From the NCBI GenBank assembly GCA_960531495.1, contig OY482850.1, forward strand, positions 405,343 to 469,342: DNA of 64,000 bases, read 5' to 3'. A program made the translations under genes and the position numbers. Below are positions 2,399 through 54,313 of the stretch, one piece after another; within the stretch, counting starts at the first letter, position 1; every line of letters begins with the position of its first letter. Source of the DNA: Zeus faber (lineage: Eukaryota; Chordata; Actinopteri; Zeiformes; Zeidae). A model generated the notes under the pieces. That model had not been told where the DNA came from. It saw only the letters and a list, made by a program, of their open reading frames with translations, and did not search any database.

Positions 2399-4004
2399 CC
2401 GTGGGGCAAAAAAGTATTTAGTCAGCCACCAATTGTGCAAGTTCTCCCACTTAAAAAGATGAGAGAGGCCTATTATTTTCATTATAGGTACACTTCGACT
2501 ACGAGAGACAAAATGAGGAAAAAAAACCCAGAAAATCACATTGTCTGATTTTTAAAGAATTTATTTGCAAATGATGGTGGAAAATAAGTATTTGGTCAAT
2601 AACAAAAGTTCATCTCAATACATTGTTATATACCCTTTGTTTGCAATGACAGAGGTCAAGCGTTTTCTGTAAGTCTTCACAAGGTTTTCACACACTGTTG
2701 CTGGTATTTTGGCCCATTCCTCCATGCAGATCTCCTCTAGAGCAGTGATGTTTTGGGCCTGTCTCTGGGCAACACGGACTTTCAACTCCCTCCAAAGATT
2801 TTCTATGGGGTTGAGATCTGGAGACTGGCTAGGCCACTCCAGGACCTTGAAATGCTTCTTACGAAGCCACTCCTTCGTTGCCCGGGCAGTGTGTTTGGGA
2901 TCATTGTCATGCTGAAAGACCCAGCCACGTTTCATCTTCAATGCCCTTGCTGATGGAAGAAGGTTTTCACTCAAAATCTCACGATACATGGCCCCATTCA
3001 TTCTTTCCTTTACACGGATCAGTCGTACTGGTCCCTTTGCAGAAAAACAGCCCCAAAGCATGATGTTTCCACCCCCATGCTTCACAGTAGGTATGGTGTT
3101 CATTGGATGCAACTCAGCTTTCTTTCTCCTCCAAACACGACAAGTTGAGTTTTTACCAAAAAGTTCTATTTTGGTTTCATCTGACCATATGACACTCTCC
3201 CAATCCTCTTCTGGATCATCCAAATGCTCTCTAGCAAACTTCAGATGGGCCTGGACATGTACTGGCTTAAGCAGGGGAACACGTCTGGCTCTGCAGGATT
3301 TGAGTCCCTGGTGGCATAGTGTGTTACTGATGGTAGCCTTTGTTACTTTGGTCCCAGCTCTCTGCAGGTCATTCACTAGGTCTCCCCGTGTGGCTCTGGG
3401 ATCTTTGCTCACTGTTCTTGTGATCATTTTGACACCAGGGGGTGAGATCTTGCGTGGAGCCCCAGATCGAGGGAGATTATCAGTGGTCTTGTATGTCTTC
3501 CATTTTCTAATAATTGCTCCCACAGTTGATTTCTTCACAACAAGCTGCTTACCTATTGCAGATTCAGTCTTCCCAGCCTGGTGCAGGTCTACAATTTTGT
3601 TTCTGGTGTCCTTTGACAGCTCTTTGGTCTTGGCCATAGTGGAGTTTGGAGTGTGACTGTTTGAGGTTGTGGACATGTGTCTTTTATACTGATAATGAGT
3701 TCAAACAGGTGCCTTTAATACAGGTAACGAGTGGAGGACAAAGGAGCCTCTTAAAGAAAAAGTTACAGGTCTGTGAAAGCCAGAAATCTTGCTTGCTTGT
3801 AGGTGACCAAATACTTATTTTACAGAGGAATTCACCAATTAATTCATTAAAAATCCTACAATATGATCTCCTGGATTCTTTCCCCCCATTCTGTCTCTCA
3901 TAGTCGAAATGTACCTATGATGAAAATTACAGGCCTCTCTCATCTTTTTAAGTGGGAGAACTTGCACAATTGGTGGCTGACTAAATACTTTTTTTGGCCC
4001 ACTG
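2399..4004 (-). mobile_element. Tc1-like transposon, complete, flanked by TA
   Basis: The element is 1606 bp. Its ends read CCGTGGGGCAAAAAAGTATT on the left and, inverted, CAGTGGGCCAAAAAAAGTAT on the right; long terminal inverted repeats continue inward through the shared AGTCAGCCACCAATTG block. TA dinucleotides flank it (2397-2398 and 4005-4006), as expected for a Tc1/mariner insertion. It carries one transposase frame on the minus strand. I recognise this as a Tc1 type widespread in fish genomes. It lies in an (AT)-rich microsatellite context, a common Tc1 target. The left terminus has C for the usual A (CCGTGG for CAGTGG) and the right end GGCCC for GGCAAA-like sequence, so end recognition could be weakened. 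Confidence 0.95.
2615..3676 (-). CDS. Tc1 transposase, intact frame
   Basis: The uninterrupted frame codes for 353 residues. The likely true start is Met14 ([10 protein letters not shown], position 3637), giving 340 residues, the usual Tc1 length. Domains: a paired-like DNA-binding region with two helix-turn-helix units (about residues 15-130), separated by a GRPR-like PRSGAPRK motif at 69-76, then the DDE catalytic core. The triad is visible: D166 in [10 protein letters not shown]257 in HDNDPKHTA and E292 in PIENLW. The spacing D257 to E292 is the DD34E of Tc1. A glycine-rich box ([13 protein letters not shown], about 199-211) is present. The protein would bind the terminal repeats and cut and paste the element at TA sites in the nucleus. 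I see no stop or frameshift, so it could encode an active enzyme; whether it is expressed cannot be judged here. Confidence 0.95.
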
Positions 4005-7052: not shown

Positions 7053-7439
7053 ATCCTCATCTTTCTCTAGCTCCAGCCCCATGTCTCGGAGGTTCCTCTC
7101 AAATTCCTCCCTCCTGGATCTTTTGTCGTCCTCCTGATAATCCAGGCTGTCGCTCTGGAAACCCAGCTCCTCGTCTGCGGCCCCCGGGCAAGGTGAGGAC
7201 ATTGGGTAGTCTGAGTGCCGACTGTTCTCCTGTGGGGCCGGGCGCATGCGGGCACCTCTGCGAAGGCTGCGGGCGAAGGCGTTGTCAGTAAGCAGCCTTG
7301 AGGGCTGGAGGCTGTAGCGCCCCCCGCTGGGCCTTTTGACATGGTAGGTTAGGATGTAGTCCACACGCCGCTGGCCATCCTGGAAGTAGAGCCCGTGCTG
7401 GCATTGCGTATTCTCCTCTGGCGTCAGGGCCTTCAGCAG
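7053..7439 (-). CDS. ano1: Anoctamin (likely ANO1/TMEM16A) coding exon
   Basis: A 387-nt exon (129 codons) on the minus strand. The acceptor is a pyrimidine-rich tract ending CCCCCTGCCAG (down to 7440) and the donor is GAT/GTGAGT at 7053/7052. It encodes part of the N-terminal cytoplasmic (anoctamin dimerisation) region. Diagnostic stretches are CQHGLYFQDGQRRVDYILTY and HVKRPSG near the start and DYQEDDKRSRREEFERNL followed by GLELEKDED at the end. As I recall it, human ANO1 has CKYGLYFRDGRRKVDYILVY, HHKRPSG, DYHEDDKRFRREEYEGNL and GLELERDED at the same places. ANO2 differs more in the acidic block, so ANO1 is preferred. The channel conducts chloride on calcium rise at the plasma membrane. 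The next exon (expected to start HGVGFVKIHAPW-like) was not found at lower coordinates and probably lies outside the window. The exon's 3' flank is the AT-rich repeat at 6.85-6.98 kb. Confidence 0.93.
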
Positions 7440-14049: not shown

Positions 14050-15410
14050 CCTTATACAACACCATACAATAAATGACCACTGTACTTTAATCCAGCTGTC
14101 TTTATGGGCTCAGCTATTGTGTTCATGTATTTTGAATCCTTTGAAACCTTTAATTTAGAATATAATATATCATATAAATATATAGTCACAAAAATCACAA
14201 AAAATATGAATTTGAAAAAGTAAAATTACTCTCATCAAATTAGATTTTTAATTTTAAAAACTCTCACCTGACCTCACAAAACCAAGGTACTTGGCATTGA
14301 TCAAGGCTTTGAGAATAAAAAAAGAATAGAAATCGGGAGATGTCTTACCTACTTCAATGTTTTTGGGGACCCTTGACAGACATCATGCGTTATTTTTCTT
14401 AACCAGTTTAATGTACGATAGAATGACCAAATAAGTTAATTTTCCCCCATTGAAAGCACACCAGGAAACTGTCTTCCACAACTGTTTAGTTTGTGACCCA
14501 AGATCGGGGAAACCTTCTGCGCAGTCCCTCATTCTATCCTGACATTTCAATCGCTGGAGTCTTACATAACACTCGTCTCTCACATCCGGGCTGGAATGGT
14601 ATTTTTAGACATTAAGAGCAAAAAAGGGAAAGAAAAAAAGCAGGGACCTTGTAGAGCCCAGGCTCACCACGCTCCCAGGGGAAAACATATGTCTTAGTCG
14701 ACACTGGGAGCAGGAAGTGGGGATGAGAGGTCACCTCTCACAGGAAACGCCAGGATGCCATCTGCCTCTCTGCAGCTCTGCAGCACTGTTCAGTTATGTC
14801 AGCTGGATGACAAAACGGACAAAAGTTATGGACTCACTGCAATCTGTTGGCCAGCTCTAGCCAACATTTCACATTGAAAACTGTTCTGCCTGACAAAAAG
14901 CTTAAATAACCGGCAAGTAGTTCAACATAACAATTTGCCACACCACCTTATAACACATGCCATAATACATCAGCCGTTTGCCAAATACGGCTTGGAACAA
15001 GAGCTTGAAATGTTAACCTTTTGGTAATAAAATACTGTATTTAACATGTGAATTTCATTGAATTACAACAAATAACAAAGTTGAAAGAAAATTATATGCA
15101 TGATAAGTTTAGCTTTTAATAAGGTACTATTCTGATTTGAATACTAAACATTTTATACTAAGGCTTCTCGAGGATTTCATGAAATGAGGCGTAACTTGCA
15201 GAGAACATTGTCAGAAACCTCAACGGCGCAACATGGTCCTACGCCCTTATGGGCAGACCAATCCCTATTGCTCTATCTGCTTTGCTCACTGCTTGCTGCC
15301 TGCTTAGCAGTCGAGCCCAAGAAACCAAACTCAAACGATGCTAAATAGATAAAAATGATTTAAAATTAAATCTAAGAGTTGTGGCTCCCAAGGCACTGCT
15401 CAGGAAGGTT
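14050..15410. other. Unassigned intronic stretch
   Basis: No recognisable gene or repeat; AT-rich with a more balanced middle (14.6-14.8 kb). Confidence 0.3.
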
Positions 15411-15414
15411 GGAG

Positions 15415-15981
15415 ATCTGGGATGGTTGTTGATGGCTGCTCTATCTTCCCACCCCCCGAAGTACGCAACCTAGTCGTCATCTTTGATTCAACCCTTTCAT
15501 TTCACTCACACATACTAAGCCCTGGCAGCACATCACCCCCCCCTCATCCATTTCCATTGGCTCCCTGTCAAATCCCGTATTTCATACGAAAACCTACTAT
15601 TAACCTACAAATCCCTCCACGCCCTTGCCCCGCAGTACATAATAGACCTCCTCCACCCCTACCCCCTGTGCCGGAAGCTGCTGTCCTCGGACACGGGTCT
15701 GTTCTCCACACCCCGCATGAGGCTACGAACCTTTGGGGAGAGACCCTTCAGTGTGGCAGCCCCCACCCTCTGGAACTCTCTCCCCACTGACATTCAAAAT
15801 GCACCATCCCTGGCCACCTTCAAAAGCCTCCTCAAAACCTACCTGTTCAACGAGGCCTACTGCCCCTGACCCTTTTTTCTGTTCTTTATTTATTTCAATT
15901 TGTCTATCCTGTCTTGTTTTGTTTTTTGTTTTTCCATTGTAAAGTGTCCTCAGGTTTGTGAAAGGTGCTATATTAATCCCA

Positions 15982-15985
<4 letters not shown>
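15415..15985 (+). mobile_element. L2-like LINE 3' end
   Basis: The plus-strand translation gives a LINE C-terminal block: LHWLPVKSRISYENLLLTYK near 15545, LHALAPQYIIDLL near 15620, and FGERPFSVAAPTLWNSLP followed by SLATFKSLLKTYLFNEAY near 15735-15865. These are the closing motifs of L2-type reverse transcriptases. The 3' UTR ends GTGAAAGGTGCTATATTAAT and runs into an (ATT)n tail, as such elements do. It is 5'-truncated and broken by indels upstream of 15560. Confidence 0.8.
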
Positions 15986-16069
<84 letters not shown>

Positions 16070-16105
16070 TTAGCATTAGTATTAGTATTATTAGTATTAT
16101 TATTG
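15982..16105. repeat. (ATT)n/(GTA)n tail of the L2-like LINE
   Basis: About 16 ATT units followed by about 11 GTA units and mixed TTAGTA units. It probably grew from the LINE's 3' tail. Confidence 0.9.
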
Positions 16106-16324
16106 TCAGAAATATCATTAACAATGAATGATTTCCAATCGAGGAGTACCATCTATAGAATATGTCATATATCACATATTGTAACTTTGATTTTCTGAAA
16201 CAGGGTTGTAGAAATACTTAATTTCACAGTATGGTTAATTTCAATACGGAGCCCAACAGTGTGAAGTGGAGTAGCATGCTGAGTCTGAAATCATGTACTA
16301 CATACAACATATCATTCATTGTAC

Positions 16325-19300
16325 TTTAGATTCAAGATTGAAGAGATTCAAGGGGTTTATTTGTCACATACATATACATACGTTCATACATATAGTGTGC
16401 AGTGAAATGTCATTGCATCGCACCCGGAGATTATGTACAAGAGTTTCTAAACCGAACATAATAGCTAACCTAATTTCTACCTAGCTAAATAACTGAAACT
16501 AACTGATTCCTAAAATCTAATGCAGTTAGCGAATAGTAATATAATAATAATAATCTAATATAATTTAAATAAAATGAAATAAACATTGACTCAAAAAGGT
16601 AATACAGAGTGGGGGTACAAAATAAAAGTAATGGGGATAAAGTTATGGGATAATACTGAAGAAATAAAGGGAATAGAGGCAATTTGTAGATACAGATATG
16701 TGCAGTAAAGTGCATGTGAATAAAGTGTGTATGGAGATATACAGTATAGTATACAACAGCAGTACCCAACAGAACAGCAATACAGTGCAGTATGCAGTAA
16801 CCCAGAACAATGATACAGTAATTTGCAGTACAGTATGCTACATATAAGTATATAAGTACAGTAAGGCAGTGGGGCCTACGTGAGGGTCTCAGTGCTTTTT
16901 GTTAGGACCCCTGGTGAGTTCAGCATTGACAGTCCTCATGGCTTGCGGGAAGAAACTCAGTCTCATTCTCTCTGTCCTTGCTGTGGGGCTACAGAGGCGC
17001 TTGCCTGACAGCAGCAGCTGGAACAGTCCATTTTTGGGGTGATGAGGATCCTTCATGATCCTGCGAGCTCTGCTACTACACCTCCTGGTGTATAAGTCCT
17101 GCAGGGGAGGGAGGGTAGTTCCAGTGGTACGTTGGGATGAATGCACCAACCTCTGCAGGGCCCGCCTGTCCTGAGCAGTACAGTTCCCAAACCAGGCAGT
17201 GATATTGCCTGTCAGAATGCTCTCCACTGCTCCAGAGTAGAAGGACTTCACCGAGAACCGGAATTTCTTCAGCTGCCTGAGGTGGTAAAGACAATGCCTC
17301 GCCTTTCTCACCGGAGCCCCATTAATCACCAACGGTGTATGCGTCCTTGTTTGTAATCCCCTCCTAAAGTCCACAATCAGCTTCTTAGTTTTGTTGACGT
17401 TCAGGAGGAGGCTGTTGTCCTGGCACCAGAGAGACAGATCAGCCACCTCCTTGCAGTAGGCCTTCTCATCGTCGTCGTTGATCAGGCCCAACACAACGGT
17501 GTCATCAGCAAACTTGATAATGGTCTTGGAGATGAGGAAGCAGCCCTGGGGGGGATCCTGTTTTCAGGGTGAGGGTGCTGGACATGTGCCTCCTCACCCT
17601 AACCACCTGGGGGCGGGCTGGGAGGAAGTCCAGGATCCAGGCACACAGCGGAGTGCTCAGTCCTAGCTCCTGCAGCTTGACAGCCAGTCTGGTGAGAACT
17701 ATGGTATTGAAAGCTGAACTATAATTGATAACCAGCAATCTCACATAGGCCCCCTTCCGGTCATCAAGGTGCGTGAACGTGGTGGTACTTGGGAGACCGC
17801 GTCGTCTGTGGCTCTGTTCAGCCGGTACGCGATCTGCAGCGGGTCCAAGGTGCGGAGAAGCGAGGCACTGATGTAATACTTAATCACCCTCTCGAAGCAC
17901 TTCATGACCACCAAGGTGAGGGCCACCGGTTGGTAGTCATTCAAGCAGGCTGGAGAGGCGATCTTCAGAACAGGAATGATGGTTGACCTTAAAGCAGGAC
18001 GGGACCACTGGCTCGGCCAGGGAGACATTGAAAATCCTAGTGAACACCGGGGCTAGCTGGTTAGCATAGGTCCATAGCTTTCCTGGTGGTCACACGCATC
18101 AGAGCCCTCCTGACGTCATCCTCGGACACTGAGAGTGCGCCCTCATCCCCAGTGGTGTAACTCCAATTAGCCGGCAAGCTAGCTGTGTTGTTGCGAGACT
18201 CAAATCGCACATAAAAGAACTTCAGTTCATTGGCTAGGGATGCGTCCACACTCGTGGCTGAGGAGGAGCCGTTGTTTAAGTTTGTAATAGTCCGCAGCCC
18301 CTGCAACAAGCGCCTGGTGTACCGTTGCTCCATCTGTCGCTCCCCTCTGTCCCTGTAGGTCCGTTTAGCACTCTTCACTGCCCTCAGCAGATTGTATGAC
18401 GTCACTTTGTAATTTCCCATATTACAGGATACAAGACCGTCGTTGTAAGCAGCCGTGCGAGCATTCAGAGCGCCACGGATGGATTTATTGACCCATGGTT
18501 TATGGTTAGGAAATATCCAAACTTTCACTGTGGGAACGATGCTTTCCGCTACATTGCTATGAAGCTTGTAGCTACTTCCGTTAACTCACTGACATCACTG
18601 GAACTTGATTGAAACATGTCAGTAAGAGCATCCTGAAGCGCAGTCTCTGATTGGTCCGACCATCACTTTACTTCCCTCATCACTATCGTTCCACGCACGA
18701 TACACGACTTGTAAACAGGAAGCAACAAAATAGCGTAATGATCCGATTTTCCAATAGCACGGAGCGAGATGGTCTTGCATCCATTCTTGTACGGTGTGTA
18801 GCAGTGGTCCAAATTTCTATCTCCCCTGGTGGCACACATGATGTGTTGGTGGAAATTAATGCAGAACTTTTTTAAGGTTCGCCCTGTTTAAGTCCACAGC
18901 CACCACCACAGCCGCGTCAGGAAGTTTGTTCTGAAGTCTGCACACCACATCATATAGATACGATAGTGCCTTGCGGTGGAACATAAAAGACCGTGATGAT
19001 GACCGTGCTGAATTCCCTGGGGAGGTAGAATGGACGGCATGAGATGGTCAGCTGTTCCAGTTTCGGCGAGCAGGAGCGGAAGAGTCTTGGTGTTGCTGGG
19101 GTTACACCAGCAGCTGTTTATCATGAGGCAGACTCCACCCTTGGATTTCCCCGACTCCTCCAACCTTTCGGCGCAGAACACGGGGAAGGACTCGCCTGGA
19201 CGAATGGCTTCATCCGGCACCAGCAGGTTCAGCGATGTCTCCATCAGGCAGAGGACACAACAGTTTATCTTATCCCATTGGAATGTAATCCTCCCTGGAA

Positions 19301-19670
19301 GGTCATCCATCTTGTTCTCCAGGGACTGGACATGAGCAAGAATGATGCTTGGCAGAGGTGGACGGTCAGGTTGTGTCCTCATTGTGACCCTAATGCTGCC
19401 ACGTTTACCGTGGTGCATCCTCCGTGGGCCCACCGGTGGAACAGCGCCTCCATTGTTGCTGTTGTTGTTGTTGTTGTTGTTGTTATTGTTGTTGTTGAAA
19501 GCATTGATGCGTAAAATCTCCGGGGCCACTCTGGATCCACGGATAAAAAGTTCCCAAGTTGATCTTTCAGGGAAATTTTTATATCGTCGAGTGCATCGCG
19601 GCCGTAGGAGATCACAGCCGATGAGTTTTTGATGGACATAAGTTATATAAAACAAATAAAAATACAAAAA
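16325..19670 (-). mobile_element. CR1/L2-group LINE, nearly full length, broken
   Basis: On the minus strand the order is: endonuclease (about 19420-18890; PSIILAHVQSLENKMDDLPG, then LCLMETSLN and GGVCLMINSCWC), linker (18528-18061), RT fingers (18000-17790; CLNDYQPVALTLVVMKCFER, TLDPLQIAYRLNRATDDAV), palm (17744-17505), the FADDT-type block just before 17494, and thumb/C-terminus (17494-16889; TGNITAWFGNC, YTRRCSSRARRIMKDPHH, GLFQLL). The 3' UTR runs to about 16325 and ends with the TTGAATCT-type tail. The palm block PQGCVLSPLLYSLYTDD seen in other copies is missing, and there are at least four frame breaks. An (AAC)n stretch in the sense strand (19454-19495) has expanded before the endonuclease. 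It cannot move by itself. Confidence 0.88.
19454..19495. repeat. (GTT)n microsatellite inside the LINE
   Basis: About 14 GTT units with one TAT interruption; in the LINE frame it codes for poly-Asn. Confidence 0.95.
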
Positions 19671-19865
19671 TGTGCATAATCAATGCAGAGCGCCTGTGCA
19701 GGCAGCCACAACAGGTGGCGCCACGTCATCACTGCCGTTTAGTATGTATGTTTGAATAAACAATGGCTTCTCGAATATACTATGTCGTTCTGTATCCACC
19801 GTACTTCCTTTCAGCACGTCTCTGGTTGATGACGACACTGCATATGTGTTCCACCACAACAAAAG

Positions 19866-20620
19866 CCGCCATCTCGCGCATTTCTAAACAACGTATTTTG
19901 ATAACCGAGTTTGATTTATGAATAGTAGAAAAATGTTAAACCATAGAGTTATTCGCGTTAGATTGGGGTAACACAGTTCACTTATAAGATGCAGAAAAAC
20001 AATGAACAATGCCGATTGATCGTTTCCTTTAAAGCGACCGTATAGGTAAAGATCATTCATCCATATTCTATGTGATATGAAGTCCCAACGTGAAACTGTT
20101 TTGATAGAATTCAACCTTTAAATTGTACTACTTTTATACACATGGAGCCACTGTTGTGAAACGGCAAAGAAGAAAAACCCTTCACGTCACACACCTACGT
20201 CACTTCCGTAAACAGACGGTTAAAGTGCACCAGATTTTCTCAGACTCATAATATTGATGGACTCCACATTTTTTTGTGTTGTCCGTACTTTTGAACTCCA
20301 AAATAATTCCACTTTCATAAAACATGTATATTCTTACTGTTAAATAAAAGCTTTTTTAAAACAAAATTTGTTGTGTGTTGTTGACGCTGTTCTTGATTGG
20401 CCCATTCAGCAGTATGTTAATTAGCCATGAGGCTTTGTTTGTCCGCCAACCCCATTTGCATTCAGGGAGCTGGCTGAATGAACCTGGTGTGGGAAAAACT
20501 TTGGAGGTGATTATCTCAGAATCACAGTTTGCCACACCCTTGTCATTAACAAGTCCGTTTTAAAAATATTTGCCTGATTTTCAAAAGTGACACCTTGTTT
20601 GGAAGCTCTGACACTTTCAA
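19866..20620. mobile_element. Second copy of the 5931-6574 element, inverted
   Basis: The reverse complement of this stretch matches 5990-6550 in several blocks: CGCGCATTTCTAA near 19871, CTTTAAAGCGACCGT near 20029, AACTGTTTTGATAGA near 20095, AGGTGATTATCTCAGA near 20506. It is longer (about 750 bp) because of inserted sequence at 20140-20460. The terminal ATGTGACCCAC repeats are not preserved here. Confidence 0.65.
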
Positions 20621-20649
20621 ATTAGACAAAAAAGAAAAAAACTTCTTGC

Positions 20650-21060
20650 CCTTGAGTTTTGCATTGTGGCATACATTTGCCAACATAGTGTTCGCAAATG
20701 GATTATGCATTAAGATCTTTCATTGGATGGAGTATGCCATGCTAGTACTATTCACATACAATTTGGATACATACATACATGCATACTAGGGCTTCAGACT
20801 TGGCATACTAAATAGCATGTGACTATGGACACAGCAACAGTGTTCCTAGTTTGAGATATTGAAAAAAGTGATCCAAAAAGATTCATTTCAGAGATTTATT
20901 TGAATTTAAATTAAATACAATACACCTTTCTGTCATCCCAAAGAAAGTTTGAATACAATAAATAAATTGGAGTCCAAAGTCTTTCATTCTAAAATGTGCA
21001 CAACCTCAATGTCTGGTTAACACATTGTTTTATTGGCATGCATGATATATTGTGTAAAGT
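20650..21060. other. Unassigned stretch downstream of the ano1 exon
   Basis: AT-rich, no recognised element. Confidence 0.3.
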
Positions 21061-21068
21061 TGACTCAC

Positions 21069-21136
21069 TATTTTCTCCTGCTCAAAGATTCCAGTGTCAT
21101 CGATCTCCTTCATGGTGATAATGGCCACCTCCTTTT
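21069..21136 (-). CDS. ano1: Anoctamin (likely ANO1) upstream coding exon
   Basis: A 68-nt exon on the minus strand. The acceptor is TCTGTTCCAG (ends 21137) and the donor is AAAATA/GTGAGT (21069/21068). It enters one nucleotide into a codon and leaves in phase 0, which fits the phase-0 start of the exon at 7439. It encodes KEVAIITMKEIDDTGIFEQE plus KI. Joined to LLKALTPEENTQCQHGLYF of the next exon, it aligns without any gap to the human ANO1 N-terminus as I recall it (SVHIINICAIEDIGYLPSEG, then T and LLNSLSVDPDAECKYGLYF). Identity is low in this part (V, II, I, D, G, E), but length, phase and position agree. The residues belong to the N-terminal cytoplasmic segment. The exon with the start codon must lie further up (above 21.2 kb) and was not found. 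Confidence 0.8.
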
Positions 21137-21139
21137 CTG

Positions 21140-21815
21140 GAACAGATTTTTTCTTTTAACGGGGTAATGAAGCTCCAGCACAGTTGGGTGTTTGAGGAGA
21201 TGAACTGAATGAGAAAAACCTGTTAAAAGGCAAATAACAAGGTCATATTTATTTTGGTAAGACTTGACACCTGCTTTCCTGAAATATGTAAGAATGAAAT
21301 TAGTTTCAGGTATAGAATATTCGACATACATAATACACACGGTTCTAGGGTACATTCAAAAACACTCAGCTATATGATATTTAGTGGTAACAACAGAATG
21401 TGTACAAACTGTAAGCATCTGAATACTTGGGCCATTATTTAGAAACTTACAATGTGTTCCTCACAATGTTACTCACTGGGCAGTTGGTTCAGCCACTTAA
21501 AAAATAGATATAATATTTTTTTGCTTTGCTTTAACCATTTACCCCATTTTTGAGACCTGACAAGCTTTAGCCAAGTAGTCAGGTTGTCAAAGCAGGCATG
21601 ACTAAAAGAGCAATCACCTTGCAACTCATTCAAATTGTCATCTGCACCGGATATACCAGAATGTGCATGATGTACGGACTGTGAACAGCACTGGTGCATC
21701 TCTCATGAACGGGTTTATTATGACACAAAGTCACAATGTAATAATAACAGGCGGATCTATCATCAGGGCGTCTAGGGCACCCACCCAGGGGAATAAAATT
21801 CAATGGGGAAGTCAA
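21140..21815. other. Unassigned stretch upstream of the ano1 exon
   Basis: No recognised element or first exon; short open frames only. Confidence 0.3.
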
Positions 21816-21819
21816 GGCA

Positions 21820-22250
21820 CTAACTGATGAAGATGAAAAGGCAAATTCCAGGAGCTAACATTCTCAGTGACATAACACACCTCCCATGTAAATTTTCACT
21901 ATAGACTAATACAATCACAATTAAATAAGAAAGATAGTAAAAAGTGAGCCATGGTTGGTTTATTATTGCAGTGTGAAACAGAAGTGCGGTCTCAAAGTGA
22001 TGAAAGGTACAACTCATTCAGATTTAGATTGGGTTCTTGACAAGTGACTCAGTAGAAAGAGTCGTTCATCTTGATTCAGTTGGTGTATTGTACGGTGAGC
22101 GAGGGAGGACTTCCAGTGAGCAATGAATGGGAATCAAAAAGGTTGAGTCTGAGTTAGCTCTAAGTTGTGAAGGGAATTGTTACAAAAACTAAATCTTTGA
22201 GGCAAAGATTCACTAGCTGCCAGAGTGACTCCTGAGTAATTTAAAATAGT
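21820..22250. repeat. Unclassified repeat, copy 2 (partner at 11500-11720)
   Basis: Same blocks and order as at 11.5-11.72 kb (CACTAACTGATG, GGCAAATTCC, GGTTCTTGAC, AAAGATTCACT, GCTGCCAGAGTGAC). About 200 bp longer because of internal sequence. Confidence 0.6.
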
Positions 22251-22748
22251 TGTTTCACTTTACAACATGGCACAAGACAAGGATGTCTACTCTCCCCTTT
22301 ACTATTCGCCATCTTTATTGGTTAACATCCAGGTGCCCCACGCTGAGCACACTCTGCTATGTGGATGGGCACTCGACACTCACGCCGGGTGGGGCATCTG
22401 GTCGGCTGCGGTGGGGCGGGCGTGGGTGGGAACGGGGGCCGGCTTGGGATCTATGCCTGCGGCTGTGTCTTCTGCCTGTACTTGGGGATGGGTTGCATGA
22501 GTGCCCCTGGGGTGCAGGGTCTCCTCGTGCTCCCTGGGACTGGGTTATGCTCCTCAGGGCCCTGTGGCTTCTCTAGGGGGCCGGGGGTCTTCTGTGGCCA
22601 CAGGGCAGGGTGCTCGGGGCTTTCCTGTAGCCGTAGGGTGTCTACGCCGCTTGGGGGCCCTTTACGCTGCTTGGAGGCGCCACGACATAATACCGATCTA
22701 ATACACAGAACCAAATGGGATAAGTCCTGTACGCTCATGGTGGACACC

Positions 22749-22797
<49 letters not shown>

Positions 22798-23300
22798 CAC
22801 CCACACCTGCTTCGAGTGCACCCCAGCACCCTCCTGGTTGCATTCCTCTCCTTTCCTCCCTCATTTACTGCCATAACTATGACAGGAAGAGGCCACGTGA
22901 CCAGTTGTAGTTCCAGTTTTCCTGGATCTAACTGTTTTTCAATACATGTTGTCATCCAATGTTTATGTTTTTGTGTAAATGTTGTTTGGTTGTTTGGTTT
23001 GGTGGTGTTTATTTGTCTCACTCATGGTGATTCTCCCCCTCTCGGAGTAATGATCAGTTGATTATAGTTGGTGGTGGTTCTCTATAACCAAAAGCCATGC
23101 CCTTGTCATCCTACAGGTCTTCCACAGGACAGAGTTATTGCAGCAGTTCTTGATGATTTAAGAAATAATAAAGAGTTGCATTGCAGGTTGAGAACTTGAA
23201 CTCCACTTGCAGACTAACTCTGTCCTAGATGCAATGGCATACAAATACTCATTGTCTGTGCTGACAGCACAGGTTAAAAATAAAAAAATGAAAAAATAGA
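22251..23300 (+). mobile_element. L1 3' end copy (plus strand)
   Basis: It starts with a scrap of L1 ORF2 (CTTTACAACATGGCACAAGA and CTCTCCCCTTT, the block that in the full L1 at 37.18 kb precedes the RT catalytic region). It then jumps to the GC-rich 3' UTR (22340-22700), a (CA)n tract, the 3' UTR proper and an A-rich tail after GCTGACAGCACAGGTTAAAA (23262-23300). No protein is encoded; the 183-codon frame here is in UTR. Confidence 0.75.
22749..22796. repeat. (CA)n microsatellite inside the L1 3' UTR
   Basis: About 23 CA units, at the same place in the UTR as the GT tracts at 36117 and 37425 (those copies are antisense). Confidence 0.95.
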
Positions 23301-23911
23301 ATAAATATACACATCTCTGATTTGAAAGAATGAATGATTTGAAAGAATGAATGAATCAGTGTTTTTTTTTATTAAATAAAACTAATGAAAACACTGTGTG
23401 TCACCGTTTAATTTACTCAAAAAAAGTGAAATATTGCAACAAATTTAAAATTTGTTCTGAAAGCTCTGTTGAGAGAAACTTATTCAGGTCCTGCCCCAGG
23501 ACACGGACCGAACCTTCAGCGATGGAAGAACCGGTGATGGGTCTGGGTGGGGACCAGCCCACATACACTCAGCGGTAATAAAAAACACGACAAATAATAA
23601 AATAAAGTTTGCTTTACGGAAGTTGGAACAAACTTTTAAATTATATCTTGTAGATCAAATATGAGTGAAGATCCAGCAATTGGACTGATTATTTCTTGCC
23701 TCAAATTTGTTCAGAAACAAATTTTTGTGGAAGGATAAGATGAAATCAGTGAATGTTAAGGAGTAAGTACAACACGGAGCTCGTTCTGAAACATCGTTGG
23801 ATGACGTCACATCAGCATTACCAGTGCCAGTGCCAGGTTCTCAGGGAGTACCCACGTGTGTGAAAACACATTGCATTGTATTATGAGGTCCCAGATGATA
23901 AATATTCCCAC

Positions 23912-23915
<4 letters not shown>
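23300..23915. other. Unassigned stretch
   Basis: Contains a short GC-richer patch (23480-23575) with open frames on both strands but no usable splice pattern; no known repeat seen. Confidence 0.3.

Positions 23916-23917
<2 letters not shown>

Positions 23918-23995
<78 letters not shown>
23918..23995. repeat. (AT)n microsatellite
   Basis: About 39 AT units with further ATACAT units to 24060, at the outer edge of the giant inverted repeat. Confidence 0.95.
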
Positions 23996-23997
<2 letters not shown>

Positions 23998-24087
23998 TGT
24001 ATACATACATATATATATATAGGAGTGGGAATATATATATATCTATATGTATACACGTACCCACACACGCACGTACGCACACACACA

Positions 24088-25375
24088 CACATAGTTGGAG
24101 CCACTTGAAGATGGGCTCTTCCTGCCGGCTGACAGCCGAATTGCAACCAGCTTCCAGTCAGCTTCCAATCAACCACCAGGAGCCTCCGAGCCGGCTGCCA
24201 TTCGGCTGGAATCCCCGCTCCTTCTCATGTGTCCTGACAGGGTGTGTTTAATTTCAACTGTAAACACACCTATTTATTCAATTGCAGTGTCACCATGAGA
24301 TGGCGCTAACTCCACAAAAAACACAATCACACTCCGGAGAGATTTCAGATTTCCACCTCTAACCCTCACCCATTACCTGAGATATTGTCCTTGAACCCTG
24401 ACCAGAGGTCATCCTTCAAAGTTCAATTGTTTAATTGTCATATGAATAAGAACAGGTCTTAATGATTTATTTTAATCTACATGTTGCACAACTTTTTAAT
24501 TTCAAAATGTGAGCTGTTTTTTATTTACATTTTTAAAATAACAAAGTTCAATGGCTTTGTAATGAGAGCACTCAAACCAGGTATATGTAATATTAGTTTA
24601 AAGTTTATTGTCAAATACTTGATAACAATGCAAGCATCATTACCAGTAATAAGATTCTTAGTCTCAGAGCTAACTTAACTTTACATAATATGTAAAATAA
24701 GAGTACTGATTAAAATAAAGTATAAGGTAGTATTTAAAAACTGAATTTTAAGAGTATTTAAACAGTTAATTTTTAAACAAAACTTAAAAATCAAAATTGG
24801 AAAGAAGTTGTACAGAATCAAATAAAAGTATTTAACTAAAAGAAAGACAAAATAAAATGTAGACAATAATGACAGTGAATCAACTTGATAGTGGAAATCT
24901 TAAATAGTCGTGGGCCACAACAATGTAATGTCATACTGAATGGTAAAATAGACAGTGTTTTAAGACAAAAACTGCAATATACTAGTAAGAGGTAAGATAA
25001 AACTGTTATGCAATACTTGATAAATTAAAGTGACTAGTTTTAAAGTTTTACTTGCAAATTTTTGAAGTGGCCAAGTGTGTGGATTTATAGGTTCTAGTCT
25101 TCAGCCATTTGATTTAAAAATTTGGGTTTTTGAACTATCTAATTTTGATTTTACTTAGAATAATTGTGAAATATCACAACAAATTTCTGCATTTGAGCCT
25201 CTGTCTGAGAAACGCCCCCCCCCCCCCCCCCATCAAAGTTCCAAAAAACAACAATGGCACAATAAAATGTTAAAAATCAATCAATAAAAGTTGATTGAAT
25301 AAAATCAACACCAGTGATATTTGAATAAGTGAATAATTTGTACACACTTTAAAGAGACTTAACAGGAAAGACTAA
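24088..25375. repeat. Giant inverted repeat, left arm
   Basis: The arm begins AGTTGGAGCCACTTGAAGAT near 24091 and its reverse complement recurs at 26715-27945. Matching landmarks: GACCAGAGGTCATCCTTCAA near 24400, CTACATGTTGCACA near 24477, AATGCAAGCATCATTACCAG near 24629, AAAGTGACTAGTTTTAAAGT near 25028, CAACTTTTATTGATTG-type (inverted) near 25290. The arms look roughly four-fifths identical by eye. There is no coding sequence. A poly-C run (25217-25230) marks a variable spot that is G-rich in the other arm. Confidence 0.85.
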
Positions 25376-26714
25376 ACTCCTTCTGAACAATGAAGATTGT
25401 TTTGCTGTTGATACAGTTGATAAACTCCATGGTTTACTTCACGGATTAATTGCCAACTATTAAATAAAATCGCCATATGATAGTAAACTGGGAATGTGAT
25501 TCCCCCTCTACAGAGAGGAATTTTCACCTCTCATGGAGAAAGTGGTTAATTGCTCCATTGAGATGTGGAGATTTTTGTCAATGGGTCTGTCTTTGCATAT
25601 GTACGGGTTAGGTGTGATGGCTTCCAGACCTGTTGGGTGACACAATGATCGGAAATTAAGTGCAAACAAAGAGATAGCCCAAGTTTTTATCTGCAGTCTG
25701 CTTGGTAGTCAATCAAAAAATGTGTACTGCGGCAATTAGAGACAGGTACTGTACCCTTGTGTAAAGTTGTAGACTGGGAGGCTCCGATAAAAATGATTAT
25801 AAAAAAATACAGAAAGTAGGAAGCAACAGGTAAAACAACAAAAACATGTGATAAACACTAAAGGCTGATGTAGCAATACAGATAAGAATGATCTCATACA
25901 ATCAATAGTCATAATGCACAGATGGTCAATTACACTTATGTGTGTGCGTGTGCATTAGTTGTCATTCTAATAAGGAACAGGGATTGATAGATACTAACAA
26001 TATACTTCAAATAAGTATTCCATAGAGTAGTAGTAATAAGTAATAATAACTTATAAGGTGCGCAAACGGCACACAGTGACAAAAAAAAACCCGCTCTCAT
26101 TCTCAGAGTTAGGTTTACATCACACAAAATGAGTTGAAGACAACAAAGAGTTGAAGATGGGTTAGGGTTAGGGTAAGGGTAAGGGTTAGGGTTAGCATGA
26201 TTATATTCATGCATTTATCAATTCACAGTAAAGCAGCAGAAATTGACATCATGCTTAACCGGCATACTGAACACATGCTGTATAACAGGCACTTGTAGTT
26301 CATCCTTGCATTTTCCCCTAACCCTGATCTTAATTTGAAGTAGGGCTTGAGCCTTTATTTGTTTGTGTTGACCACACCCCTGGCATTTATTAGAGGCCCA
26401 GTTTTTATTTAAATAACTGTTTATATTTGAGGAAATATGGTAACTCAAATATATGAATTACCTTATCTTCTTAACCTTACACTGCTAGTATGTACACCAT
26501 CACCTCAATGCTAACCCTGCTTTTTGTTGTTGTTTTCAGTGTGTTTGATGTTGTTTTGATTGTTGTCATTCATTGTCAAAGAGGAATATTTTTTTGAAAG
26601 TTTTGTGTTTATTTATTTAAACACAGTATGGAACCAGATGAGAATGGCACACTATTATTTTATATATACATACAGTATATAAAAAAAAATATATATATAT
26701 ATATACCCATATAC
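25376..26714. other. Spacer of the giant inverted repeat
   Basis: About 1.34 kb of AT-rich DNA with no recognised gene. It holds a telomere-type tract at 26161-26195. No transposase remnant was seen, so the element would be non-autonomous. Confidence 0.5.
26161..26195 (+). repeat. Interstitial telomere-type repeat
   Basis: Six tandem units of TTAGGG with two TAAGGG variants, inside the spacer of the inverted repeat. Confidence 0.85.
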
Positions 26715-27945
26715 TGTTTAGTCTCTTTAACATTTGTACAAATTACTATTATATCCCTGGTGTTAATTTTATTCGATCAACTTTTATTGATTGAGTTTTA
26801 ACATTTTATTGTGCCATTGTTGTTTTTTGGAATGTGGAAAATCAATCTATTAAATGGGGGGGCAGGGGGGAGGGGGTGTTCTCCTACAGAGAGGCACAAA
26901 TGCAGAAATTAGTTGTGATTTTTCACAATTATTTTAAGTAAACTAAAAATGTGATAGTTCAAAAGGCCAAACACGAGAACCTATAAATCCACACACTTGG
27001 CAACTTTAAAAAGAGGCTAGTAAAACTTTAAAACTAGTCACTTTAATATATCAAGTGTTGTATTGCATAGCTGTTTTGTCTTATGTCTTAGTAGTACAGT
27101 GCAGTGCTTGCCTTACAGCACTGAGTCTATCTTACCATTCAGTATGACACTGCATTGTTGTGGCTTCGAACTATTTAAGATGCTCACTGTCAAGTTGATC
27201 ACTGTCATTATTGTCTGCATTTAATTTAATCTTTCTTTGAGGTAAATACATTTATATTACGTATAGTACACCACTCCTTTCCATTTGAGATTTTTAAAAT
27301 GTTGTTTTTAAAAGCTGTTTAAATACTCTTTAAATTCTGTTTTCAAATACTGTTTTATTTGAATCACTACTGTGCCCTTATTTTAAGTATTATGTAAAGT
27401 TGAGTTGGCTCAACATCACTGGTAATGATGCTTGCATTGTTATCAAGTATTTCACAATAATCTTGAAACTATAAATAATTACATAGACTTAGTTTGAGAG
27501 CTCTCATTACAAAGCATTGAACTTTGTAATTTACAAAAAAGTAAATTAAAAAACAGCTCACATTTTGAAATTCAAAAGCTGTGCAACATGTAGATTAAAA
27601 TAAAGCATTAAGACCTGTTCTCATTCATATGACAAAAAAAACAATTGAACTTTGAAAGATGACCTCTGGTCAGGGTTCAAAGGAAAATATCTCAGGTAAT
27701 GGGTTAGGGTTAGGGTTAGGGGTGAATATCTTAAATCTCTCGAGAATGTGATTGTGTTTTTTGTGAAGTTAGGGCCATCTCATGGTGACACACTGCAACT
27801 GAATAAATGGGTGTGTTTACAAATCAAAGGACACATGAAAAGGAGGGGCAATTCCACAAATCTGGTGGTTGGCTGGAAGCTGGTTGAAATTTGGCTGTCA
27901 ACCAGCTGGAAGAGCCCTCTTGAAGTGGCTCCTACTGTATATTAG
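26715..27945. repeat. Giant inverted repeat, right arm
   Basis: Reverse complement of the left arm, ending GAAGTGGCTCCTACTGTATA. Near 27701-27720 it carries three to four TTAGGG units where the left arm has a single CTAACCCTCACCC-type stretch, so the telomere-like motif expanded in this arm only. Confidence 0.85.
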
Positions 27946-32603: not shown

Positions 32604-33787
32604 TTACATTTACATTTACATTTAGTCATTTAGCAGACGCTTTTATCCAAAGCCACTTACAAGGGAGAATAACATTCAGCTACATTGCGACAGAGATTAG
32701 TGTAACAACAACATTGGTGTAACAATAAATACTGCAAGGTGGTGCTAAGTAATTGTAGATTAGGACAGGAGGTACTCACTGAAGAGCTGGGTCTTCAGGT
32801 GCTTCTTAAAGACAGAGAGGGAGGTCCCCGCTCTGGTCATTTTTGGCAGCTCGTTCCACCAACGTGGAACTACAAATGAGAATAGCCTGGATTGCCGTGG
32901 CTGTATGGCCGGCAGAGCCAGGCGACGCTCATTTGACGAGCGCAGCATCCGGGGGGCAACATGTGCTCTTACAAGAGCACTTAAGTAGGCGGGAGCATTC
33001 CCAGCAATCACTCTGTAGGCCAGCATAAGAGACTTGAACTTGATGCGAGCGGCTACAGGTAACCAGTGGAGCTCGATGAGCAGCGGAGTGACATGTGCCC
33101 TCTTTGGCTGGTTGAACACCAGTCGCGCCGCCGCATTCTGTATCATCTGAAGTGGCTTCACCGCACAGGCCTCAAGCCTGTTAAGAGGGCATTGCAGTAG
33201 TCGAGACGGGACATCACCAAGGTTTGTACCAGCAGTTGAGTGGCATATTGGGTCAGGTACGGCCTGACTTTTCGGATGTTGAGTAGTGTGAAGCGGCAGG
33301 ACCGGGAGACGGCGGCAACTTGGTCCGAGAATGTCAGTTGGTCATCAATAATGACACCAAGATTCCTTGCAGCCTTGGTAGGAATCAATCAGGAAGCAAT
33401 GTTGTGATAAATACCTTGTTTGGCCGGGAAGACCAGCAGTTCCGTTTTCGCCAGATTTAGTTGAAGATGATAATCCTTCATCCATGTGGATATGTCAGCG
33501 AGACAATCCGAGATCCGCGTCGAGACAGTAGGGTCGTCGGGCGGGAAGGACAGATAGAGTTGAGTATCATCCGCATAGCAGTGATATGAAAAGCCATGTG
33601 AGCGGATGATCGGGCCCAGTGAGGTGGTGTATATGGCAAAGAGGAGGGGTCCTAGCACCGAGCCTTGGGGCACCCCTGTGGTGAGGTTGTGAGGCACAGA
33701 CAGCTGGCCTCGCCATGTCACACTGAACGAGCGCCCAGTAAGGTAAGATTCGAACCAGGAAAGTGCACTGCCCGTTATGCCCATGTT
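32604..33787 (-). mobile_element. L2 LINE, 5'-truncated, inserted into the L1
   Basis: Minus-strand frames follow each other: 33784-33389 (RT palm: GVPQGSVLGPLLFAIYTTSL, YADDTQLYLSF), 33388-33158 (NLGVIIDDQLTFSDQ, RLDYCNALLTGL) and 33161-32760 (IQNAAARLVFNQPKRAHVTP, LHWLPVAARIKFK, WWNELP). Only about two frame breaks separate them, so the copy is fairly young. The 3' end reads AAGTGGCTTTGGATAAAAGC, GTCTGCTAAATGACTAAATG and ATGTAA repeats, the classic fish L2 tail. Confidence 0.93.
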
Positions 33788-48596: not shown

Positions 48597-49640
48597 AAGA
48601 TTCAAGATTTTTTATTTGTCACATACATATACATACTTCCATACATATATGCAGTGAAATGTAATGCAACGCACCCGGTGATAGCACACAATATGTCCTA
48701 GGAAAAAAATAAAAAATAAAATAAAATAAAAAGTAGAAAATTCCTTTCTAATAGACCGACTAACTGACTCCTAAAACGTAATACAGTAAGTGGAATACTT
48801 ATAGAATAAGATAAAAATATAAAGAATAAAATACAATAAAAATAAATTGAAATAAAATGGAATAGATAGAAGGAATATGCCTATGTGTATACAGATATGT
48901 GCATTTAAAGTGGCATGTGAATTAAAGTGGCATGTGAATGTGAATAGAGGGAGTAGTGTTTGGGATAATACAGCACAGTATACAACAGTACGGCGCAGCA
49001 ATACGGCATCACGAACAACCCTGAACAGTGACACAGTATGCGGTACAGTATGCTACATACAGTACACTAGGTAGTGGAGCCTAGTGCATGGCTCGGTTAG
49101 GACCCCTGGTGAGGTCAGCGTTGACAGTTCTGATGGCGTGCGGGAAAAAACTCCGTCTCAGTCTCTCTGTTCTCGCTGCGTGACTGCTGAGGCGCTTGCC
49201 TGACCGCAGCAGCTGAAACAGTCCGTTGTTGGGGTGATGAGGATCCTTCATGATCCTACGGGCTCTGCTACTACACCTCCTGGTGTATAACTCCTGCAAG
49301 GGGGGGAGGGTAGTTCCAGTGGTACGTTCAGCTGAACGCACCACCCTCTCAAGGGCCCGCCTGTCCTGGGCAGTACAGTTCCCAAACCAGGCAGTGATGT
49401 TGCCTGTCAGGATGCTCTCCACTGCTCCAGAGTAGAAGGACTTGAGGATCCTCACCGAGACCCGGAATTTCCTCAGCTGCCTGAGGTGGTCGAGACGCTG
49501 CCTCGCCTTTCTCACCAGAGTGTCTGTGTGAACAGTCCATGTTAAGTCCTCTGTGATGTGGACTCCCAGATATCTGAAGCTGCTCACCCTATCGACAGAA
49601 GTCCCATTAATCCACAAGGGCACGTGCGTCATCTCTGTTC
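48597..49640 (-). mobile_element. CR1/L2-group LINE copy inside the Gypsy fossil
   Basis: Its 3' end lies at 48597 (inverted TTGAATCTTGAATCTT tail, then GTCACATACATATACATAC). The RT C-terminus is an uninterrupted frame at 49632-49081 (183 residues): RVSSFRYLGVHITEDLTW, FYSGAVESILTGNITAWFGN, YTRRCSSRARRIMKDPHH. The copy is 5'-truncated just upstream of that frame. The clean frame suggests a fairly recent insertion compared with the copy at 16.3-19.7 kb. Confidence 0.92.
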
Positions 49641-53239: not shown

Positions 53240-54305
53240 AATGTGAATGAACACAGGATCCCCCCGGGGCTGCGTCCTCAGCCCCCTACTGTACTCCCTG
53301 TACACAGATGACTGTGTGGCCAGGTCCAGCTCCAACACCATCATCAAGTTGATGAGAAGGCCTACCGCAAGGAGGTGGCTGACCTGTCACTCTTGTGCCA
53401 GGACAACAGCCTCCACCTGAACGTCAGCAAAACTAAGGAGCTGATTGTGGACTTTGCGCCTTTGGTGATTAATGGGACTTCTGTCGACAGGGTGAGCAGC
53501 TTCAAGTACCTGGGAGTCCACATCACAGACGATTTAACATGGACTTTACAAACAGACACTCTGGTGAGAAAGGCAAAGCAGCGTCTTTACCACCTCAGGC
53601 AGCTGAGGAAATTCCGGGTCTCGGTGAGGATCCTCGAGACCTTCTACTTTGGAGCAGAGGAGAGCATCCTGACAGGCAACATCACTGCCTGGTTTGGGAA
53701 CTCTACTGCTCAGGACAGGCGGGCCTGGCAGAGGGTGGTGCGTTCAGCTGAACGTACCACTGGAACTACACTCCCCTCCCTGCAGGACTTATACACCAGG
53801 AGGTGTAGTAGCAGAGCTCGCAGGATCATGAAGGATCCTCACCACCCCAACAACGGACTGTTCCAGCTGCTGCGGTCAGGCAAGCGCCTCCGCAGTCACA
53901 CAGCATTTTTTCCCGCAAGCCATAAGAACTGTCAATGCTGACCTCACCAGGGGTCCTCACTGAGCCACACACATAGGCTCCACTACCTAAGTGTACTGTA
54001 TGTATCATATTGTACCGTATACTGTGTCACTGTTCTGGGTTGTTCGGTGTTATCGTATTGCGGTGCCGTACTGTTGTATGCTGTGCTGTATATCTCACAA
54101 ACGCTACCTCACTTTTTTCACGTGCCACTTTAATGCACATATCTGTATATACATAATTAGCCTATCCCATATACATAAGTCTATCCCATATGCATAAGCC
54201 TATTCCCTTTATCTATTTAATTTTATTTAATTTTATTTAATTCTATATATTTTTATTTTATTCTATAGCATTCGACTGCATTACATTTTAGGAATCAGTT
54301 AGTTG
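53240..54305 (+). mobile_element. CR1/L2-group LINE copy, plus strand (5' part)
   Basis: Begins with the palm block NTGSPRGCVLSPLLYSLYTD (53252-53310). The main frame 53375-53941 (188 residues) then has the C-terminal blocks LCQDNSLHLNVSKTKELIVD, SSFKYLGVHITDDLTW, TGNITAWFGNSTAQDRRAWQ and YTRRCSSRARRIMKDPHH. A short deletion removes the FADD region near 53345. The 3' UTR is interrupted at 54313 by a hAT element and resumes at 55562-55711, ending in TTGAATCT units. Confidence 0.92.
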
Positions 54306-54313
54306 GTCTTGTA

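Follow-up and report, generated by a model that had tools for sequence, protein, structure and literature searches.

Foldback or long-TIR elements such as Tetris and Galileo contain long inverted arms around a spacer, and the locus described here was found to have the same outward form. The dispersed family to which its arms belong is most like the vertebrate non-autonomous Tc1/mariner-type elements, which contain TA flanks, CAGT... ends and a short terminal inverted repeat (TIR). MuTAnT of Medicago is a Mutator-like element that targets TA microsatellites (PMC4486113), and one event at the present locus would share with it an insertion into TA-rich sequence. No name for the family was met in the titles and abstract openings on foldback elements, Bari, MuTAnT and palindromes.

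The locus lies in a window of 64 kb, the whole stretch of DNA that was analysed. With a probability of about 0.88, its inverted repeat consists of the 5′ parts of A and B, two independent members of a single family, with the 5′ ends directed outward and A nested in the oppositely oriented B. The most likely account is thus a nest of two old non-autonomous TA-transposon copies, and hence ordinary genome history. The initial annotation had proposed a single foldback element or a local inverted duplication; its statement that a transposase is lacking agrees with the ORFs, in none of which one was recognised, and the outer arm ends that it described proved to be those of a transposon and to occur at many places in the genome, whereas the reading of the arms as TIRs proved wrong and the local duplication was not supported.

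The two arms of the inverted repeat

The left arm (24093-25365, plus strand) was found to pair with the right arm (26714-27936, minus strand) in the best local alignment against the reverse complement, with 1043 identities in 1164 aligned positions (89.6%) and 168 gap columns. The local score was 1375 against a maximum of 41 across 50 shuffles, and the giant inverted repeat with 1.2-kb arms is therefore real, as had been claimed. In blastn, where gaps are counted, the identity of the arms was 77.8% over 1327 columns, with many indels. The spacer between the arms occupies 25366-26713 (1348 bp). The outer arm ends were found to contain AGT(T/A)GGAGCCACTT, in agreement with the earlier description. 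The borders given previously (24088..27945) enclose the right region, with the start placed 5 bases and the end 8-9 bases too far out; the start at 24088 takes in a CA microsatellite.

The differences between the arms comprise 47 transitions and 74 transversions scattered along their length, and the longest identical run was found to be 45 with gaps ignored, against about 48.5 expected by permutation. An excess of transversions over transitions is unusual in neutral vertebrate DNA. Because the arms are this divergent, an assembly duplicate would be an unlikely origin for them, judging from the sequence differences. A further candidate, in which each arm is a transposon with TIRs of its own, was rejected, as the two ends of an arm were found to pair no better than shuffles.

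A dispersed family with TA flanks

The search space for the left arm (L) was the 803-Mb genome in 153 contigs, in which 886 loose first-look candidates were found; of these, 40 were scored, the window included, and every one matched with E of 1.5e-269 or less. A search of the genome for the same ends had been suggested in the initial annotation, and many places were found to carry them. Twenty other copies were fetched with roughly 4 kb per side; these were chosen by resemblance to copy A, which biases them toward similarity between A and the others. In 17 of the 20 copies, L was found to be continued by the spacer sequence (S) without a change of strand (hits over 100 bp), the exceptions being L025, which contained 37 bp of S, and L021 and L022, which contained none. 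A second long inverted L was found nearby in one copy of the 20 (L012), in which both L pieces are shortened and about 2 kb of unmatched DNA lies between them. Since S is present in the same unit in 17/20 copies and an inverted L in 1/20, the spacer, unlike the second arm, forms part of the repeat unit. Matches of 37-41 bp in the opposite orientation to L at about 1052-1094 were found in L013, L016, L018 and L019; the same match is carried by the 3′ parts of L023 and L040 (at 2623-2663 in L040), and this 37-42-bp stretch is therefore a short internal repeat of the family.

The family unit was found to run from CAGTAGGAGCCACTTG to CAAGTGGCTCCTACTG, with ends of about 24 bp and a TA directly outside each end. 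The 5′ end is sharp (CAGTAGGAGCCACTTGAAGAGG) and is preceded by TA in 14 of the 20 copies; the common 3′ end type was recovered in 11 of the 20 copies, 9 of which contain TA directly behind it, against a background TA frequency of 0.069. In 8 of the 11 copies, the 5′ and 3′ ends agree at 17-21 of 24 positions, which constitutes a short TIR. The other end matches were 13 (L017), 9 (L024) and 6 (L019) of 24 positions, the first two because the 5′ end is lost and the last because a one-base difference at the 3′ end caused it to be read out of register. The terminus pattern, taken as an exact match to TA plus the end, was found in at least 100 places (at least 50 per strand) on contigs C1 to C21, against 0 for the reversed control. 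Among the matches listed, two terminus pairs were found within 8 kb (C8 and C13), each containing a 5′-type with a 3′-type end, and no pair of two 5′-type ends within 8 kb was found among these at least 100 matches.

One of these two pairs is the full member L040, which was found to be 3.57 kb long and to have the order L-S-T, with both ends intact and TA on either side. The other pair is L039, a form of 897 bp with the middle deleted and TA on either side. At the loci L031, L035, L036 and L038, no more than about 50-170 bp of family sequence was found behind the exact termini, which suggests a wider group with the same ends, or deletions. Opposite pieces with their 5′ ends outward and other DNA between them were observed at L029/L030 (C21:5.253-5.259 Mb) and at L045/L038 (C1:50.376-50.379 Mb).

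These copies bear on the reading of the locus as one non-autonomous long-TIR or foldback element of the form L-S-L′. Both arms do have the termini of an element at their outer sides, and a TA lies directly beyond B, but the geometry of the window was absent from the 20 fetched copies, of which L012 alone has a long inverted L. Moreover, the terminus pairs among the matches listed are those of an ordinary element, the distance between the two arms is no smaller than that of other pairs, and the other copies, including the full member, contain the arm and the spacer followed by a different 3′ part and bear only a short TIR. A single foldback element is accordingly considered extremely improbable.

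With respect to coding capacity, no protein family was found above the curated cut-offs in the 15 ORFs of 60 aa or more overlapping 24093-27937, and no transposase was recognised among them, as had been stated before. A coding remnant in the inverted repeat was considered and rejected, since its three ORF hits at E up to 1 (Bunya_G2 0.47, DUF520 0.021 and Phage_coat 0.12) all lie beneath these cut-offs. L040 was found to contain 4 ORFs, without a Pfam match. No autonomous partner was seen at eight terminus loci and five further stretches, in which the ORFs were judged by eye rather than scanned and pieces resembling other inserted elements were set aside. As the search for a TA-target transposase gave none, the family is called non-autonomous. 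Elsewhere in the window, an open Tc1-like transposase frame of 361 aa is present at 2618-3700 (minus strand), with matches to HTH_SB (7.6e-24), HTH_Tnp_Tc3_2 (8.9e-20) and DDE_3 (1.8e-15).

Independence of the arms and order of the pieces

A tree and a distance matrix were made from 21 L segments, namely 19 other copies, A and B; several rows of the matrix are partial L segments, and L024 was left out of both because its 5′ end is lost. The tree was found to contain long end branches and short inner branches, of which 3 of 18 were well supported, and A and B were not sisters in it. The A-B distance was 0.144 against a mean of 0.137 over 210 pairs, with 145 of the 210 pairs closer. Among the 19 other copies, 11 were found to be nearer to A than B is, and 15 to be nearer to B than A is, the latter despite the choice of copies by resemblance to A. 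The arms are no more alike than other members, as two independent family copies would be, which argues both against a local duplication and against the spread of the arms as one element. An inverted duplication of L beside A, for example by template switching, would account for two L segments in opposite orientation in one place, but its arms should then be more alike than either is to the other copies, which they are not, and the right arm stops at the family 5′ terminus with a TA behind it, as would be expected of an insertion. Hardly any likelihood is left to it.

The locus was mapped with 11 two-ended copies, with runs kept if 4 or more hits covered them; some copies also matched the TA tract at about 23916-24060 more weakly on the plus strand, and these matches were excluded from the family pieces. 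Copy A (24093..26669, plus strand) was found to contain L (24093-25365) followed by S (25366-26669), matching L023 (2-2583) and other two-ended copies, and most of the "spacer" is therefore the S segment of A. The right arm was found to be the 5′ part of copy B (26707..27937, minus strand), with CAGTAGGAGCCACTTCAAG as its outer end and a TA directly beyond it at 27938-27939. To the left of A, the same map gave a family 3′ part on the minus strand (23295..24021) in the pieces 23295-23448, 23473-23540 and 23610-24021, which is probably copy B continuing beyond A and could instead belong to a third copy. The 3′ part is followed by a TA/CA microsatellite (24022..24092) at the 5′ end of A, which resembles a microsatellite between S and T in other copies and would be that of B, and the landing place of A. 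A TA-rich junction (26670..26706) connects the S of A to B at about 1.3 kb from the 5′ end of B and is the putative deletion point.

Minus-strand family pieces of complementary content were thus found on both sides of A, as in a nest. Against this pattern, the inner copy A is without its 3′ part, which may be explained by a later deletion, and its 5′ end contains CA+TAGT where TA+CAGT is expected, so that the flank is CA rather than TA. A separate dispersed repeat (22345..23288) adjoins the lost 3′ end of B, with relatives in the window at about 35.6-36.6, 37.4-37.8, 40.5-41.6 and 63.1-64.0 kb. The final ~325 bp of B and its 3′ end were not found to the left of 23295 (window positions 15001-23300), where the scores of seven 330-bp tails (21-26) spanned the same range as those of their shuffles (21-26, one per tail). 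Since the 3′ end of A and the last ~325 bp of B are missing, neither target duplication is verifiable at both ends.

Two or three truncated insertions lying side by side, without nesting, are considered very unlikely. With the ends of A and B missing, the events could have come in more than one order, and opposite-oriented pieces with no visible nest are present at two other loci (L012/L029/L030 on C21 and L038/L045 on C1), but the minus-strand pieces flank A, with the 5′ part on its right and the 3′ part on its left.

In the preferred account of nesting, A would have inserted in the opposite orientation into the internal TA-rich microsatellite of B. A subsequent single deletion of about 2.5 kb, reaching from the internal microsatellite of A to the 5′/middle boundary of B, would have removed the 3′ part of A and the middle of B, leaving L(A)-S(A)-L′(B). 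If A inserted whole, its 3′ part and the middle of B would be neighbours, and one deletion of ~2.5 kb would therefore suffice. The proposed deletion point was found to sit in TA-rich sequence. A broader proposal is that the internal TA-rich microsatellite serves the family as a preferred landing site, so that it tends to insert into itself, the opposite-oriented nests being trimmed at the palindrome centre by deletion. Besides the window, opposite-oriented L pieces close together were found in 2 of the 28 other loci examined (L012 and L038), and the proposal is regarded as unlikely; if true, it would provide a built-in route to stable inverted repeats genome-wide.

Setting of the locus and comparison with known systems

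The window was found to contain a second inverted repeat, 48753-49621 against 53458-54309, with 83% identity and about 3.8 kb apart. It consists of two LINE-like 3′ pieces, the ORFs of which resemble reverse transcriptase ends by eye. A third copy is present at 16332-17316, and a 97% copy is inserted in L024; the related frame 16892-17563 gave no convincing Pfam hit. A UnaL2 LINE 3′ element is located at 32620-32673 (minus strand; Rfam RF00436, 55.9 bits). The LINE-like pair shows how such inverted repeats arise in repeat-rich DNA.

An anoctamin-1-like exon was found at 7053-7439 (minus strand; Anoct_dimer PF16178, 3e-10; match to a probe, 1.85e-25), and no first exon was recognised in the 64-kb window with a short probe. 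Together with the UnaL2 element, this exon suggests a fish-like vertebrate as the host. The inverted repeat could lie in an early intron or upstream of this anoctamin-1-like gene. The ability of the arms to pair as RNA, raised in the initial annotation, is predicted by duplexfold, with -1402.7 kcal/mol against -315 to -360 kcal/mol for 5 shuffles, and the arm pair, if transcribed, could give rise to double-stranded RNA or make the locus unstable. The account of nesting does not imply a present function. A striking 1.2-kb inverted repeat can arise by ordinary nesting of one repeat family, and most of the question is settled once the arms are compared with copies elsewhere in the genome.

The terminal sequence CAGTAGGAGCC occurs in print in 12 papers, and among the matches listed all were unrelated by title, Repbase and Dfam being outside this scope. 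No match to the TIR pattern was found in the viral and prokaryote collections, or to the L-S-L′ block in phages.

The TA flanks, read as target-site duplications, and the short CAGT ends would place the family with the Tc1/mariner-type, a placement from sequence that is not proven. The family is like non-autonomous members of that type in its internal-deletion forms and in that no protein family was found in it, and differs in having no linked transposase to prove the superfamily. A length of 3.57 kb is long for a non-coding Tc1/mariner-type member. MuTAnT is Mutator-like, whereas the insertion into a TA tract proposed here would be a single event. In contrast to foldback elements such as Tetris and Galileo, the arms of the present locus do not form the termini of a single mobile unit, and the TIR of the family is about 24 bp long.
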